Below are positions 6,601-18,899 of a DNA stretch of 21,858 nt, piece after piece. The stretch covers positions 1 to 21,858 of the IMG/VR virus record IMGVR_UViG_3300042514_000759. The stretch is one strand, 5' to 3'. Source of the stretch: a virus. Every line of letters begins with the position of its first letter. Position 1 is the stretch's first letter. The position numbers and the translations under genes were made by a program. The notes beneath the pieces were generated by a model, which did no database searches, had not been told where the DNA came from, and was given only the letters and a program-made list of their open reading frames with translations.

Positions 6601-9600
6601 TAAATTAAATATTAAATTACCAAAATTATCAATACATTCAGATTTTGTTTGATTTATAACACTACCGTTTGACGGCATTATAAATTGATATTGTCCATAA
6701 TCAGATTTTACCGATATTGACCAAGGAATCACAACATTACTTACGGTATTTAAAATTGGAACTTGTTTTGTGTTATTAATGACCGCCTCAGGGACATAAT
6801 TTAAAACAAGACCTTCATTAAAACCATTTTGAATGTCGGTATTAGTATATCCCGTAAAAATCGTATATCCTTGATAGAAAATATTAAAATCATTTATCAA
6901 TTTAGGGTAAAACCCTGTATTAATTGTTAATATTGAATTATTACTACCAAACGTTGATACTTCCTTATATTGTTCCAAAATAATTGATGTTCCACTTATT
7001 TGTCCCGGAAGAATTAAATCATATGTTTTAGTTTTATCATTCGTTACCGGGTCATAATTACTAACATAATCAAAATCTTCCCAACAATTGGTTAATATAT
7101 CATTACCGGTTTCTATATAAGTTTTATATCGGTTCCATATTGAACCCACTTTTAATACCCAAGCATAAGGTATTTTGTGTAATCCCCCAAATTTATTTAA
7201 GGACGCAAAAATATAATCTAAACTTTCATCAGAATAATTATCTTGAGTTCCGGTATATGTTTTGTATTTCTCCCTTAATGTTGATAATGGTAAACTATTA
7301 ATAAACAAATATGCCGAACTAACAAATGGGTACAGTTCTTTATTCCTTAACTTTTCAACACCTTCTTGTATCGCATTAATAAAATAAGGAGTGTTTAAGA
7401 TAGAGGTTGTTTGATAATTACTAACTAAACCTGAATAGTTTAAATATTTAACATCACCTTCTGTTGGTAACTGATTAGTATAAGTTCTACTTGCATAAAA
7501 ATTTCTAAAATCATCATTTATTACCTTAGGTGTTACGATATTCTTATAAACAAAATTTGTTATAGGTCTTTTAACATCTTGACCTTGAGAATCCGTAAAA
7601 TTACAAATTACTTTTTTATTACTATTAAACACCAAAGTTTTAGTTGTATTAAACGCAAGTTTCTCATCAGTACCAACACCATTTTCTAAATTACTTTGAA
7701 CCCATTTTTTATTCGTAAATGGAAAAATATCAGAAAAACCATATTTGTTTGATGATGTTGAGGTAGATACGTATGTTGAAATATCCTCTTCTTTTTGTAG
7801 TGAAAATAAAGGTTGAGAACTACTACTATCTAATTCACTTTGAGTTAAAAATTCAAAATCACCGTTTTCAACATCATTTTTAATATATCCCGTGTTGAAT
7901 ATACCTCTAATGTAATTCTGCCAACTCTGACCAGCACCCTCATTTGAGATATGTTTTAATACACTTGGAAAATTACTTGAGGTAAGATTGTAATCTCTAA
8001 TAATTTTAATTAAAGACGCATCCGAATTTGATATACTATTTTTTATATTTAAACTCTCACCATCAGCAATAACATTTGATACCTTATCTAAATCACTTCC
8101 ATTATTTTCACTTCTATCTAATTTTGAATAATGGGATGTTAATAAAATTCTTTCATAAATTTCATAAATGTAATTAACATCCACTTTATTTGCAAAAACC
8201 TCATTACTAATCGGAAACTCAATAGCACCCAAAGACACTCGGTTTGGTTCGGTTACTGAATTTGAATTATCTGCGGTAGGTTGTGGAGGTGGGGTTCTTT
8301 GTGTTAAACCTCTAATAAATTCCTCAACAAACTCTATTTCAGGCCAAACATCATATAAATAACCTTTTGTTTGACTAATAATATCATTATCTCCCGGATA
8401 TCTTACTTCATATTTTTCTTGCCCATTTTCACCGGTGGTTGATTTAATCACCTGAGGCCAAGGATAAATTGGTTGAGTTGAATTATTACCCGAAGTTTGG
8501 TTATCAGGATTAGCATTAGAAACCGTAGTATCAAAAATTGCGTTTTTTCTAATCTTATCATCTCTTTTTTCCCAAGCTTTAGTATGAACATCATCCATCA
8601 ACCTTAAAAAAGCTTCACCATTGGCAAATATAACCGCAAGAACATTTCTAATATTTGGAATAAAACCAATACCATTATCCTTACTTTCCAATAATTCAGC
8701 TAAAGCCTTTGTTAATTCTTCTTGAATTGTTTCTCTTTTTGTTTGAAGGTCCTTATTCATTTTATCAGTTAAATCAATAAAACTATTTTTACCTTCAAAC
8801 ACAAAATATTGTGATGTTACTTGTGTACTACCACCTTTAAGTGTTATGGTTATATTGTCTAATATATTTGAATTTGTTAATTCTGCTCGAAATTTAGCTA
8901 AATCCTCCGGTGTTGGTTGACTATTTTTTCTTTGTGCTTTATATGTCTCTTCAAGATTTATATCATCGTAATTAACATTTTTTGGGAAAATATCATATTT
9001 GACAGGATTTGGTATTTTACACTCGGTTTTTTTACCATTAATCTCATAACTACCATTATCGCCACAAGTTTTATTACTATTTAGTAATACATTATACTTG
9101 TCGATAATACCTTTTAATTCTGAAACCGCATTACTTTTTACTTCTAAACTTGTATTTTTTTTAAATGTGTAAACTTTTTGTTCCGTATTTAAAATATAAT
9201 AATTAACAACATCCATATATTTATTGAACCAAGAAGTTTGTAATGTGTAAAACACATCTTTTTGATAATCTCTTAATTTATTACTATATGTGTCTAAATC
9301 AGTTAAAGGGTCTAAATTTTGTTTTGTAAATGATTCTAAAACATTTGTGATAAAATTTTCAATTCTATCTTTCATTTGCATAACCGTTATTTCAGGAAAA
9401 TCATTTGGAATTAACCCTTTAGATTTATATTCACTATACATTTCAACAATTTTTTGATAACCTCGTTCAACAACAATATCATTAGTTTTGGTTGTTTTAC
9501 TAGGACCACCACTAGTCGAACTAATTGTAAATCTTGATTGATACATATGAGGTGTTGCCATTAAAGCACCCATAGTAATCTCACTTAAAACCGTATATTT

Positions 9601-15588: not shown

Positions 15589-17364
15589 TTAAGAGTATTG
15601 TAAAACACCCGGATTTCTTAATTGTTGTTTATTAGGGTTTGTTGTTGTTAAACCACCATTAGTAAACGCCTCTTTAACCGCAACACCTAAAGCTTGTGAA
15701 ACACCTGTATCATTAAACATAGCAATCACTTGTTCAGTATTAACATTACTAGGAGCACTAATATTAATATTTAATGTATGTGTTAAATCTACTTTAGAAT
15801 TAGTTGATGTTGGTGATGATGATGGTGTATTATTAGAACCTGTTAACTTAGATAAAACATCACTACCTTTAGTGAATGCCGCAAATGTGTCTTCCGGTAA
15901 TAATTGAATATCTTCATTTGGCATTTTTAAAACGTCACGGCCAGTTCTAACTGGAACTCCAATTATTTTATCAATCAATTTTTCCATACCATTACTTAAT
16001 ATTGGCATTTTTTGACTTAAATTTTGTATAGCTTCAGCAAAATTATCCGTAGCAGAAAAAAGAGATTTTGTTTTTTGCACCATAAATTCATCAATTGACA
16101 TATTCCCCGCCGCGGCCTTATCAAGGTCTTTTCCTAATTGATTTGCAGTTAATGGTGGTTCAGCATTTTTTAATGAATCGTTTATTGATGGCATAATATT
16201 TTTTGCCAACGTCAATAATTCATCACCGGTATATGATTTAGCCAAAGTTTTTGCAGGTGTTGATACAAGTTTTGCAATACCTCCCGCCATAGCTTGTTGG
16301 GCAGACAATTGTTGTTTAGCCAAGTCTTCCATCGTAGGTGGTCCTTTTTCAGCCGCCTCTTTAAGTTTTGCAAAATCTTGGGGTGTAAGTTTGTCAACAT
16401 CTTTAGTTTCATCACCAATTGTTACTTGATATTTTCCATCCTTACCCATCTCAGCCATATTGGCAATAAGTTTTTTATCTTCCTCGTTAGCAAAATCACT
16501 AGGAAAACTTATTTCATTCATTTTCTTATCTAAATCAGCACCCGCTAACGCCATTTTAGTTAATTCAGTATATGGCATACCCATCGCCTTAGCGATTTCT
16601 TGCATTTGACGTTTTGCTCCCGGCATAATTTCAAAACGACCATCTTTACCTAATTGAACAAATTGTTTACTCATTTGAGCTATTTGATTCTGTAATTCAG
16701 CAGGGTCATTTTGTGATAAATCCATTAATTTTAATGGGTCTAATAAGTCACCTTGACTAACTCCTAATCTCTGTAACGCCGCTGCCGTTTCAATAGCACC
16801 CTCAGGATTATAAACTTTTTCAGCAAAATCTAATGTTGATTTCATATCAATTCTTAACATACTCGCTTGTGCCGCCATTTTAGCCAATCCTGAAACTCCT
16901 CCTTCAAAATTGAATTGGTTAAGATATTTCATATTATCTATAACTTTAGCAGACACCGCCTGAGCATTAACTCCGGATTCACGAGCAATATCAACAACTT
17001 TTTTCATTTCAGATGCAGTATTATAAGCTGATATACCCACATCAGCCATACTACTAACCATTTTAGTAACTTCTATATTGGTAACTTTATATGAGGCATA
17101 TAAATCTTTAGCACCATCAGCACTTAATGTAACCGCTCTACCCAAACCACTAGCAACACCCTCTTGTAATCTTGCAACATCTTCAAGAGTACCACCCATA
17201 TCTTGGATAGCGTCTAATGATAAAGCCATAGCAGCTCTCATTGACTGAGCCATTTTATCGGTCATACCGAATAGACCCAGCATTTTAGAACTTGAATTAT
17301 CAATATCAAGTATTAATTTTGCTTGTGCTGCTGTTAATTTTTTTAAGTCGTCAAGTGCCCCCAT
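15589..17364 (-). CDS. Tape measure protein candidate, 591 aa
   Basis: This mainly helical protein is rich in Ala, Met, Lys and Gln and lies between the tail tube/gp26-like genes and the baseplate genes, where the tape measure is found in tailed phages. Its N-terminus (MGALDDLKKLTAAQAKLILD) runs into long helical stretches; a Pro/Asn/Ser linker (about 525-540) precedes a C-terminal segment (HTLNINISAPSNVNTEQVIA). I chose the ATG at 17362-17364 because the longer frame needs a TTG 10 codons upstream, inside a hairpin and a TATTTATA box. With this start the protein has 591 residues, almost the same as T4 gp29 (590), so a T4-like tail length of about 90-100 nm would follow if it is the ruler. 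No lytic or transglycosylase motif was seen. An internal virion protein is a less likely alternative. Confidence 0.75.
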   Translation of the reverse strand: MGALDDLKKLTAAQAKLILDIDNSSSKMLGLFGMTDKMAQSMRAAMALSLDAIQDMGGTLEDVARLQEGVASGLGRAVTLSADGAKDLYASYKVTNIEVTKMVSSMADVGISAYNTASEMKKVVDIARESGVNAQAVSAKVIDNMKYLNQFNFEGGVSGLAKMAAQASMLRIDMKSTLDFAEKVYNPEGAIETAAALQRLGVSQGDLLDPLKLMDLSQNDPAELQNQIAQMSKQFVQLGKDGRFEIMPGAKRQMQEIAKAMGMPYTELTKMALAGADLDKKMNEISFPSDFANEEDKKLIANMAEMGKDGKYQVTIGDETKDVDKLTPQDFAKLKEAAEKGPPTMEDLAKQQLSAQQAMAGGIAKLVSTPAKTLAKSYTGDELLTLAKNIMPSINDSLKNAEPPLTANQLGKDLDKAAAGNMSIDEFMVQKTKSLFSATDNFAEAIQNLSQKMPILSNGMEKLIDKIIGVPVRTGRDVLKMPNEDIQLLPEDTFAAFTKGSDVLSKLTGSNNTPSSSPTSTNSKVDLTHTLNINISAPSNVNTEQVIAMFNDTGVSQALGVAVKEAFTNGGLTTTNPNKQQLRNPGVLQYS

Positions 17365-17384: not shown

Positions 17385-17426
17385 AATACACCAAAGAGTA
17401 GTTTTAAATTACGTCTTTGGTGTATT
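17385..17426 (-). repeat. 13-bp inverted repeat spanning a stop codon
   Basis: AATACACCAAAGA (17385-17397) and TCTTTGGTGTATT (17414-17426) are perfect reverse complements separated by 16 nt. The loop contains the stop codon (17409-17411) of the overlapping small frame. On the coding strand the 3' arm is followed by TATTTATAAA rather than a pure U run, so it may act as a weak terminator, an RNA-stability hairpin or a guard on the tape-measure start. Confidence 0.6.
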
Positions 17427-17582
17427 ATCTTCGATTATCCGGTCTACGAGATATTTTCTCACATACGTCGGCATTATATAAAAATCTGAATATGAAAGTC
17501 TAATAAAACGAGCCAAAAAATAATACTCCTCAATTAGACCTTGTCTGTGATTAGAAGAAAGGGCGAAAAAAGTCCACCCCAA
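17409..17582 (-). CDS. Small overlapping tail gene, possibly a frameshift extension of the gp26-like gene
   Basis: This frame overlaps the last 32 nt of the gp26-like gene in a different phase and ends at the TAA on 17409-17411. Its sequence looks like a real small phage tail protein: RQGLIEEYYFLARFIRLSYS followed by DFYIMPTYVRKYLVDRIIED. It has no ATG before the conserved part. The only near start is TTG at 17580-17582 (Met-Gly-Trp-Thr-Phe-Phe), which would give 57 residues. Alternatively, ribosomes reading the gp26-like gene could shift on the run of six T (17566-17571) by +1 or -2 and add about 50 residues to it. The place between tail tube and tape measure is where tail assembly chaperones of many phages are made by programmed frameshifting. 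Coding is likely; the mode of expression is inference. Confidence 0.6.
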   Translation of the reverse strand: MGWTFFALSSNHRQGLIEEYYFLARFIRLSYSDFYIMPTYVRKYLVDRIIEDNTPKT

Positions 17583-18306
17583 AGGTTATCTCGAAAGATA
17601 CCAATTCTCCTGATGGGGCGATTACTTGTCTACTTAAATCTAATGATGGTTCATTATCTCTTAAAAATTTTCTTATGTATTTTGAATCACTAATTGGTAA
17701 TGTCTCAACATATAATGCTATTTTACCTTTATCAGTATCCCCATCAAATTCAACAATATGTTGATTTAATTTCCAAGTTACCCTTGGTGCTTGTCTTCCG
17801 GCAGGATATTGACTAACCATTCTATCTAATTCAATAGTATCGTTGAAAGTTGTTAATTTTAATTTAACCGTTTTACCACAGTTAGGTAATGTTGTTGTAA
17901 ATAAACCATTTTCATCAGGTTTCACACTAGTTTGTTTAATATTTAATTCATCCAACAAAATAGTTCCAACAAAAGGTTTATCGGTTTTAGGGTCAATTAA
18001 ATTTACTTTATATTCCGGTCCAAATGATGTATTTCTTAGGAATATTAAAATAGCTTCAACATCACCATTTAATAATTCTTCGGGTCTTAAATCGTGTTCA
18101 TATATTTTATTTCTTAATAATGATAAAATAATATTTTCACCACTAATTCCTGAACCAATTAAATAATTTTCATCATTAGCTGTTAAATAACCAACTTTAA
18201 CTGATTTCTTTTTTGATTGATAAAATATACCACCGGTAGGTAATTGAACGACATCGTGAGGTAAGTTAAAACCTTGTGTTGCAGCATCCATAATGTTTTG
18301 TTCCAT
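17551..18306 (-). CDS. gp26/T4-baseplate-family protein, possible tail assembly role
   Basis: This 251-residue protein begins MEQNIMDAATQGF and then shows VVQLPTGGIFYQ, a charged segment (VKVGYLTANDENYLIG), a helical region (ILSLLRNKIYEHDLRPEELL), GDVEAILIFLRNTSFGPEYK and a second half with LPNCGKTVKLKLTTFNDTIE. The order 'LPSxGxFY, Lta-E, Gd--ALL--LR---yG-eY' matches the family that includes T4 gp26-type baseplate hub proteins; the exact T4 orthologue is not certain. A longer frame beginning with GTG at 18369 would run through the upstream terminator and a TATTTATA box, so I take the ATG at 18306 (18291 is a weaker alternative). The gene lies between tail tube and tape measure, and its last codons contain six consecutive T, where an overlapping frame could be entered. 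Confidence 0.7.
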   Translation of the reverse strand: MEQNIMDAATQGFNLPHDVVQLPTGGIFYQSKKKSVKVGYLTANDENYLIGSGISGENIILSLLRNKIYEHDLRPEELLNGDVEAILIFLRNTSFGPEYKVNLIDPKTDKPFVGTILLDELNIKQTSVKPDENGLFTTTLPNCGKTVKLKLTTFNDTIELDRMVSQYPAGRQAPRVTWKLNQHIVEFDGDTDKGKIALYVETLPISDSKYIRKFLRDNEPSLDLSRQVIAPSGELVSFEITFGVDFFRPFF

Positions 18307-18410: not shown

Positions 18411-18899
18411 TTAGTAAACTAATACACATCTATCCATACGTAAAGATGTGTTGATAGTAGCTATTTTATCATCACTATAACTTAAAGAACCAAAGTCAGA
18501 ACTTGTAATAAATGTTCCTTCTAAAATCCATTTTTCTACAACAACTCCGGTCGGGTCTAACATCTCAAGGTCAACATTTTTTTTGTATCCCGCGGCGTAT
18601 CCCATACGACCTGTTACTGATTCAGCACATAGACGTATCCATTCCATCAAAGCTTGTGATGCTGACGGTCCAATAGGGTCTCTGAAAGTCACAGCTAATT
18701 CGTTCCATACAAAACGACCAGCAACATATGTTGAAGTATTTAAGAATGGTATTTCTGTTGCGTTAATTTTTATACTTGGTCTTTTTGCCGTTTCAACAAA
18801 CCATTCATTAATACCTAATGTTGATGGAAATCGCATAATAAAACGATTATTTCTTTTTGGTTCATACGGTATGGGCATTTTCATTAATAAATCAGCCAT
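18411..18899 (-). CDS. 19: Tail tube protein, gp19-like
   Basis: At 162 residues this is nearly the length of T4 gp19 (163). It starts MADLLMKMPIPYEPKRNNRF, continues with IMRFPSTLGINEWFVETAKR and PSIKINATEIPFLNTSTYV, and has the typical AVTFRDPIGPSASQALMEWI block followed by TGRMGYAAGYKKNVDLEMLD. This ordering (KRxNRFxxxFP, I--W-V----RP, -vtfrDp-g) is the signature of gp19 tube proteins, which stack as hexamer rings inside the sheath. The gene stands alone, with a 160-bp AT-rich leader before it and a terminator after it, as expected for a protein made in large amounts. No Shine-Dalgarno sequence precedes the ATG, which follows AAAAACAAATAGAACA. Confidence 0.95.
   Translation of the reverse strand: MADLLMKMPIPYEPKRNNRFIMRFPSTLGINEWFVETAKRPSIKINATEIPFLNTSTYVAGRFVWNELAVTFRDPIGPSASQALMEWIRLCAESVTGRMGYAAGYKKNVDLEMLDPTGVVVEKWILEGTFITSSDFGSLSYSDDKIATINTSLRMDRCVLVY

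Follow-up and report, generated by a model that had tools for sequence, protein, structure and literature searches.

We analyzed a stretch of 21,858 nucleotides (nt) of viral DNA, IMG/VR record IMGVR_UViG_3300042514_000759, referred to here as the window; coordinates are positions in it. Two reading frames, G and T, overlap on its minus strand (Table 1). G is a gp26-like gene and T is a small frame overlapping its end. The 3' end of G reads TTT GGG GTG GAC TTT TTT CGC CCT TTC TTC TAA, with the stop codon at 17551-17553. In the +1 frame the same stretch reads TTG GGG TGG ACT TTT TTC GCC CTT TCT TCT AAT CAC AGA CAA and continues to a stop at 17409-17411, giving the protein quoted in the initial annotation. 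The two frames overlap in the +1 phase at TTT_CGC. As the initial annotation had stated, T has no ATG ahead of its domain; the only start-like codon upstream is a TTG. Its slip arithmetic is also correct: the T frame is reached by a +1 slip (UUU to UUC) as well as by a -2 slip (UUU to UUU). The TTT TTT that it placed just before the G stop is indeed near it, but four sense codons (CGC CCT TTC TTC) intervene. Our analysis indicates that in this T4-like bacterial virus the pair is very probably expressed by a programmed +1 frameshift, which yields G and a fusion G-T as the short and long tail assembly chaperones.

Table 1. Features of the G/T locus and its neighbors in the window.
Feature	Position	Strand	Evidence or remark
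G, gp26-like, 251 amino acids (aa), putative short chaperone form (TAC-N)	17551..18306	-	phrog_150 baseplate hub, E=1e-9
T, +1 frame, 51 codons past the shift, putative TAC-C of the long form	17412..17564	-	Kept in relatives; profile matches
Proposed +1 shift site UUU_CGC	17563..17568	-	P-site UUU 17566-17568 would re-pair as UUC; A-site CGC
Shine-Dalgarno (SD)-like GGGGTGGA, proposed stimulator	17573..17580	-	Close upstream of shift site; GGG in 55/55; anti-SD pairing
TTG, sole alternative start codon upstream of T	17580..17582	-	At -14 in all window-clade loci
Small hairpin GGTATCTTTCGAGATAACC, tentative	17584..17602	-	Upstream of shift site; folds at low energy in most relatives
Tail tube gene (T4 gp19 type)	18411..18899	-	phrog_4542, E=1e-24; phrog_45, E=2e-11
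Downstream gene, putative tape measure, 591 aa from ATG	15589..17364	-	Position after G/T

IMG/VR was scanned with G and then with an alignment. This yielded 146 usable loci, or 87 once redundancy at the junction was removed. These 87 relatives, with 66-100% identity, are referred to as the window clade. Two further clades, A3 (79 loci) and A4 (29 loci), have about 20-40% identity. A3 includes Flavobacterium phage immuto, Microcystis phage Mel-JY01 and the huge phage LR756508, and A4 includes Bacillus phage SP-15, Listeria phage LIS04 and Streptococcus phage GXN1. The +1 phase of T is shared by 87/87 window-clade loci, 77/79 A3 loci and nearly all A4 loci. For six A3 loci the frame was settled by reading and not by open reading frame length; four are +1 and two are -1. 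The small frame in another phase reported by the initial annotation is confirmed, and its retention in all 87 close relatives places it far from chance.

The slip site is equally well preserved. TTTC is retained in all 87 window-clade loci, where the site consists of TTT or TTC, then TTT, and then CGN (85/87) or CTC (2/87). One locus, L045, was read by hand and its slip codon placed at TTT TTT_CTC. Its G stop has moved two codons downstream, and both the site and the T frame are retained. The A3 site is TTT TTT_TGG or _TAC, or TTT CTT_TGG, and five A3 loci carry CUU_U. Most A4 members have TTY TTT_CGT. The P-site tetranucleotides are TTTC in the window clade and A4 and TTTT or CTTT in A3, all of which permit +1 re-pairing.

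A script scored re-pairing in the +1 direction (UUU to UUC or UUU, and CUU to UUU) as possible in 86 of the 87 window-clade loci, and reading by hand added the last one; in A3 it is possible in 77/79 loci. A -2 slip, which would move UUU onto UUU two bases back, leads to the same frame. A TTTTTT run that allows the Phe-tRNA to re-pair in this way is present in 82/87 window-clade loci, and phage Mu uses a -2 frameshift at the same genome position. However, the sequence is TTC TTT in four loci of the window clade and in at least six of A4, and TTT CTT in five of A3; in all of these the -2 re-pairing is lost and the +1 re-pairing is kept. In addition, every window-clade locus has a C directly after UUU, which is relevant to a +1 but not to a -2 slip. 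The initial annotation proposed that the phase relation and the T6 run should both be conserved in homologues. The phase relation is, but the run is broken in the four window-clade loci with TTC TTT, and it is TTTC that is conserved. Given the loss of -2 re-pairing after a TTC or at a CTT slip codon, and the conservation of TTTC but not of the T6 run, we prefer the +1 slip and consider the -2 slip very unlikely. The two predict different junction residues, FF-A for +1 and FFF-A, one residue more, for -2.

Past the G stop, the mean entropy of the T frame is 0.72, 0.43 and 1.09 at codon positions 1, 2 and 3, respectively. With this pattern the frame behaves as protein-coding. Nucleotide conservation is strong across the G/T junction, as it would be if T were not expressed and the overlap were a conserved RNA or DNA element; the overlap could also be due to chance. 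Against this, T varies in a coding-type manner, its profiles are homologous to known proteins of other phages including T4 gp51, and the site has no Rfam match. We regard the probability of a T that is not expressed as negligible.

Synonymous variation points to constraint on the slip site itself. Among 55 diverse window-clade genes it is zero at the slip TTT, unvaried in 55/55, and at the adjacent TTT, GGG and CCT, the lowest of 139 conserved columns in G. The CGN codon is among the most variable of these columns, and its third base is free. Synonymous constraint is maximal at the site in every clade. Wherever an Arg follows the slip codon in the window clade, it is encoded by CGN and never by AGA. 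Elsewhere in G, AGA makes up 80% of Arg codons and CGG is found in 0/804. Because the Arg after the slip codon is always CGN, the C following UUU is kept despite most Arg codons starting with A. This bias is supporting evidence and not decisive, as the overlapping T frame could contribute to it.

The positions of start codons bear on whether T could be translated separately. No ATG, GTG or TTG is found from the last T-frame stop to 45 nt past the site in 29/79 A3 loci and 8/29 A4 loci. A separate start of T at an ordinary start codon is thus excluded in these loci. The last T-frame stop is as near as 8 nt upstream of the P-site codon in several A3 and A4 loci. Such nearby stops, together with the lack of start codons, confine the shift to a segment of about 25 nt containing the site. 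In the window clade, an ATG lies between the upstream stop of T and the site in two loci only. The situation that the initial annotation thought incompatible with frameshifting, a T gene with a separate ATG, was encountered in none of the close relatives.

The initial annotation considered a start at the TTG at 17582 the simpler explanation. T would then be a separate small protein produced by coupled initiation within the end of G. In the window no other start-like codon lies upstream of T, and a TTG is present at -14 in 87/87 window-clade loci. However, it arises as a by-product of the conserved codons TTT GGG. It is not preceded by a good SD sequence, and the conserved SD-like GGGGTGGA overlies and follows it. 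In the sister clades of the same layout, 37 loci have no start codon at all, and in T4 the T domain comes as part of a G-T fusion. Two other groups have an ATG for T. In cyanophages (76 non-redundant loci), it is located 11 nt past the site in 75/76 loci. In the huge phage LR756511 (L085, 3750-3920), G is extended and T has its own ATG at the G stop, in another frame. A free T is therefore possible in some lineages. The TTG start formally remains a rival within the window's own clade only, where we consider it improbable.

The window clade also contains an SD-like element close to the site. Pairing with the anti-SD sequence peaks where the 9-mer begins 13 nt ahead of the P-site codon, and in the median locus it exceeds all background stretches of the gene. 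The GGG of the element is unvaried in 55/55 genes, and in the window sequence the element is not followed by a start codon at SD distance. In the cyanophages, where T is in the -1 frame, the pairing peaks about 20 nt before the TTC codon (about 17 nt before TTT). A3 and A4 have no clear SD-like element. The SD spacing is known to be short at RF2, a +1 site, and longer at dnaX, a -1 site. The spacings in the window clade and the cyanophages match this contrast. The GGTATCTTTCGAGATAACC region upstream has a median fold energy at the 1.9% percentile of gene windows across relatives. Its base-pair changes in the window clade are not clearly compensatory and the covariation is unconvincing, so we regard this hairpin as tentative. 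Downstream of the site, no structure matched Rfam and single-sequence folds gave nothing consistent.

Both domains are homologous to T4 proteins. G matches Pfam PF12322 with E=9e-5 and 22.7 bits, just under the cut-off of 24.5, and the G clade profile aligns with gp26 of cyanophages and KVP40 (hhalign, E=5e-22). An AlphaFold model of G has a pLDDT of 86, and its fold matches SP-15 and other T4-type hub proteins; no match to G by sequence or fold was found in the PDB. The T of the window (57-aa frame) has no direct family match on its own, and tblastn of this frame by itself found nothing in phage genomes. As the domain is short and divergent, T was traced via loci and profiles. The window-clade profile matches A3 (E=4e-11), A3 matches cyanophage gp51 (E=5e-7) and cyanophage gp51 matches the C-terminus of T4 gp51 (E=4e-6). 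The A3 and A4 profiles match each other with E=2.5e-15. T4 gp26 (208 aa) and gp51 (249 aa) both match PF12322 (E=9e-64 and 4e-52, respectively) and phrog_150. T4 gp51 extends further into phrog_634, to which the small KVP40 frame and the cyanophage gp51 of 57 aa also belong. These matches indicate that T4 gp26 corresponds to G and gp51 to G-T, encoded as two genes. In the T4 genome (L086) gene 26 is located at 7803-8429 and gene 51 at 8480-9229. Both products are listed as hub assembly chaperones, with gp51 being essential and of unknown function (PMC3004832). The conserved phase and slip codon, the start-less relatives and the homology to the gp51 C-terminus support the programmed frameshift that the initial annotation had suggested between the tail tube and tape measure genes.

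Other T4-type phages have T in the -1 frame. In cyanophages, KVP40, Agrobacterium phage Atu_ph07 and PA5oct it is found in this frame at T_TTT_TTC, a classical -1 heptamer, the G homologue ending in NNT TTT TTC. In the cyanophages, T is -1 in 75/76 loci and NNT TTT TTC is present in 76/76. The TTT and TTC are invariant in 39/39 diverse genes, with TTC accounting for just 21% of their Phe codons. Since the cyanophage T has an ATG just after the site, both a frameshift and a separate start are possible there. The canonical -1 chaperone frameshift at an X_XXY_YYZ heptamer does not apply to the window clade, in which every T is +1.

Several observations weigh against a +1 shift at UUU_C, or against parts of its support. 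Two window-clade loci have CTC in place of CGN, and the conserved TTG at -14 could start T in this clade. The nucleotide constraint at the site is partly accounted for by overlapping coding. In CGN, the third base is also the middle base of a T codon and may be dictated by the T frame. The rare CGG and CGC thus need not reflect selection for slow decoding, and a rare A-site codon was rejected as proof of it. Four A4 loci (L346, L349, L351 and L352) lack UUU_C and may use CCC_A instead. In two A3 loci, L293 (about 2210-2410) and L324, T is found in the -1 frame without a clear site.

The exceptional loci have features of their own. L293 and L324 read TTC TTT TGG or TTC TTC TGG and have no recognizable -1 heptamer. 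The four A4 loci come from soil phages and have a +1 layout with a conserved AAT CCC AGT, near 2200-2218 in L346, L349 and L351 and near 2230-2248 in L352. This motif suggests a +1 slip at CCC_A, which would resemble Listeria phage sites.

We propose that tail assembly chaperones are expressed from G and T as a single unit. The majority of ribosomes would terminate at the G stop and produce G. In a presumed minority, with tRNA-Phe on UUU in the P-site and a codon starting with C (CGC) in the A-site, the tRNA would slip +1 onto UUC. The slipped ribosomes would continue in the +1 frame and produce the 298-aa fusion G-T (P0001). The SD-like GGGGUGGA is close upstream, at an RF2-like spacing, and may aid the forward slip. 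By analogy with lambda gpG and gpGT, the tape measure protein would be coated by many copies of G and few of G-T, whose T domain would recruit tail tube subunits.

Tail chaperone frameshifting is already known. Xu, Hendrix and Duda 2004 reportedly described a conserved tail frameshift in siphophages. In lambda and the siphophages, as in the window, the pair lies between the tail tube and tape measure genes. There a frameshift near the end of the first gene adds a rare C-terminal extension, as proposed for the window. However, the lambda shift is -1, and its likeness to the window rests on gene arrangement. The initial annotation knew of no such case in T4-type phages, which is outdated. Vladimirov, Gautam and Davidson 2022 (Virology 566:9) reportedly found frameshifting to be conserved in several T4-like groups, with T4 using genes 26 and 51 instead. 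They are also said to have already proposed that gp51 is the fusion and gp26 the first domain alone. Their paper on T4-like tail assembly chaperones is cited in PMC12846349 and PMC10885494, and the former gives poly-T -1 signals for other T4-like groups. T4 and the window share the family PF12322/phrog_150 and, as proposed here, a short and a long form, with phrog_634 at the C-terminus of T4 and cyanophage gp51. Unlike the window with its proposed +1 shift at UUU_C, T4 has two separate genes.

The slip site itself resembles those of two other systems. In the UUU_CGN class, influenza PA-X has a proven +1 site, UCC_UUU_CGU, and the class has been described in eukaryotic viruses (PMC3498833). Influenza PA-X, amalgaviruses and fijiviruses have UUU in the P-site and CGN in the A-site, and slip to UUC. 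The same arrangement, a zero-frame UUU followed by CGN with T in +1, is present in the window clade in the 85 TTT_CGN loci. However, the class comprises eukaryotic RNA viruses with no evident stimulators, whereas the window is phage DNA with bacterial translation and an SD-like element. In RF2 (prfB), an SD-like element precedes CUU_UGA. Both systems would involve a forward slip of the P-site tRNA with an SD-like element located a few bases before it, and the CUU_U of RF2 recurs in five A3 loci. Work on RF2 placed UUU among the next most slippery +1 codons (reviewed in PMC10885494). The window differs in its CGN A-site codon and in its product, a putative morphogenesis protein and not an autoregulated factor. 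In the archaeal myovirus HSTV-2, the tail chaperone pair is considered very likely to use +1 (PMC5009743). It belongs to a different virus group, and the likeness rests on the gene pair and the probable +1 direction. In T4-type phages, a +1 form at UUU_C combined with an SD-like element spaced as in RF2 is probably a new variant.

We lean slightly towards a broader interpretation. T4-type phages may have kept one chaperone pair at a T run and switched the shift direction several times, using -1 at U_UUU_UUC and +1 at UUU_C, UUU_U, CUU_U and perhaps CCC_A, or a gene duplication in T4. In at least two clades, the distance of an SD-like element would correspond to the slip direction. This reading would also make UUU_CGN, known until now from eukaryotic viruses only, a working +1 signal on bacterial ribosomes. 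If so, chaperone frameshifting in T4-type phages would extend to the +1 direction, and one gene family would offer a natural series of -1 and +1 sites for relating SD spacing to slip direction. The long-unexplained essential gp51 of T4 would find its place as the long form in fused state. Many genome annotations would also be corrected, including SP-15 gp046 and the missing T in LIS04 and GXN1. SP-15 gp046 (L082:3740-3859) is annotated from an internal ATG, and its real frame opens inside the preceding gene. In LIS04 and GXN1 the T gene is absent from the annotation.

The G/T pair in the window is located between the tail tube gene and the putative tape measure gene. No homologue of the latter was found in the phage collection, and its match to Pfam TMP_3 is weak (E=0.18). 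As homology searches gave only this weak match, its identity was assigned by position. Annotated tape measure genes are found at the equivalent place in LIS04 and immuto.
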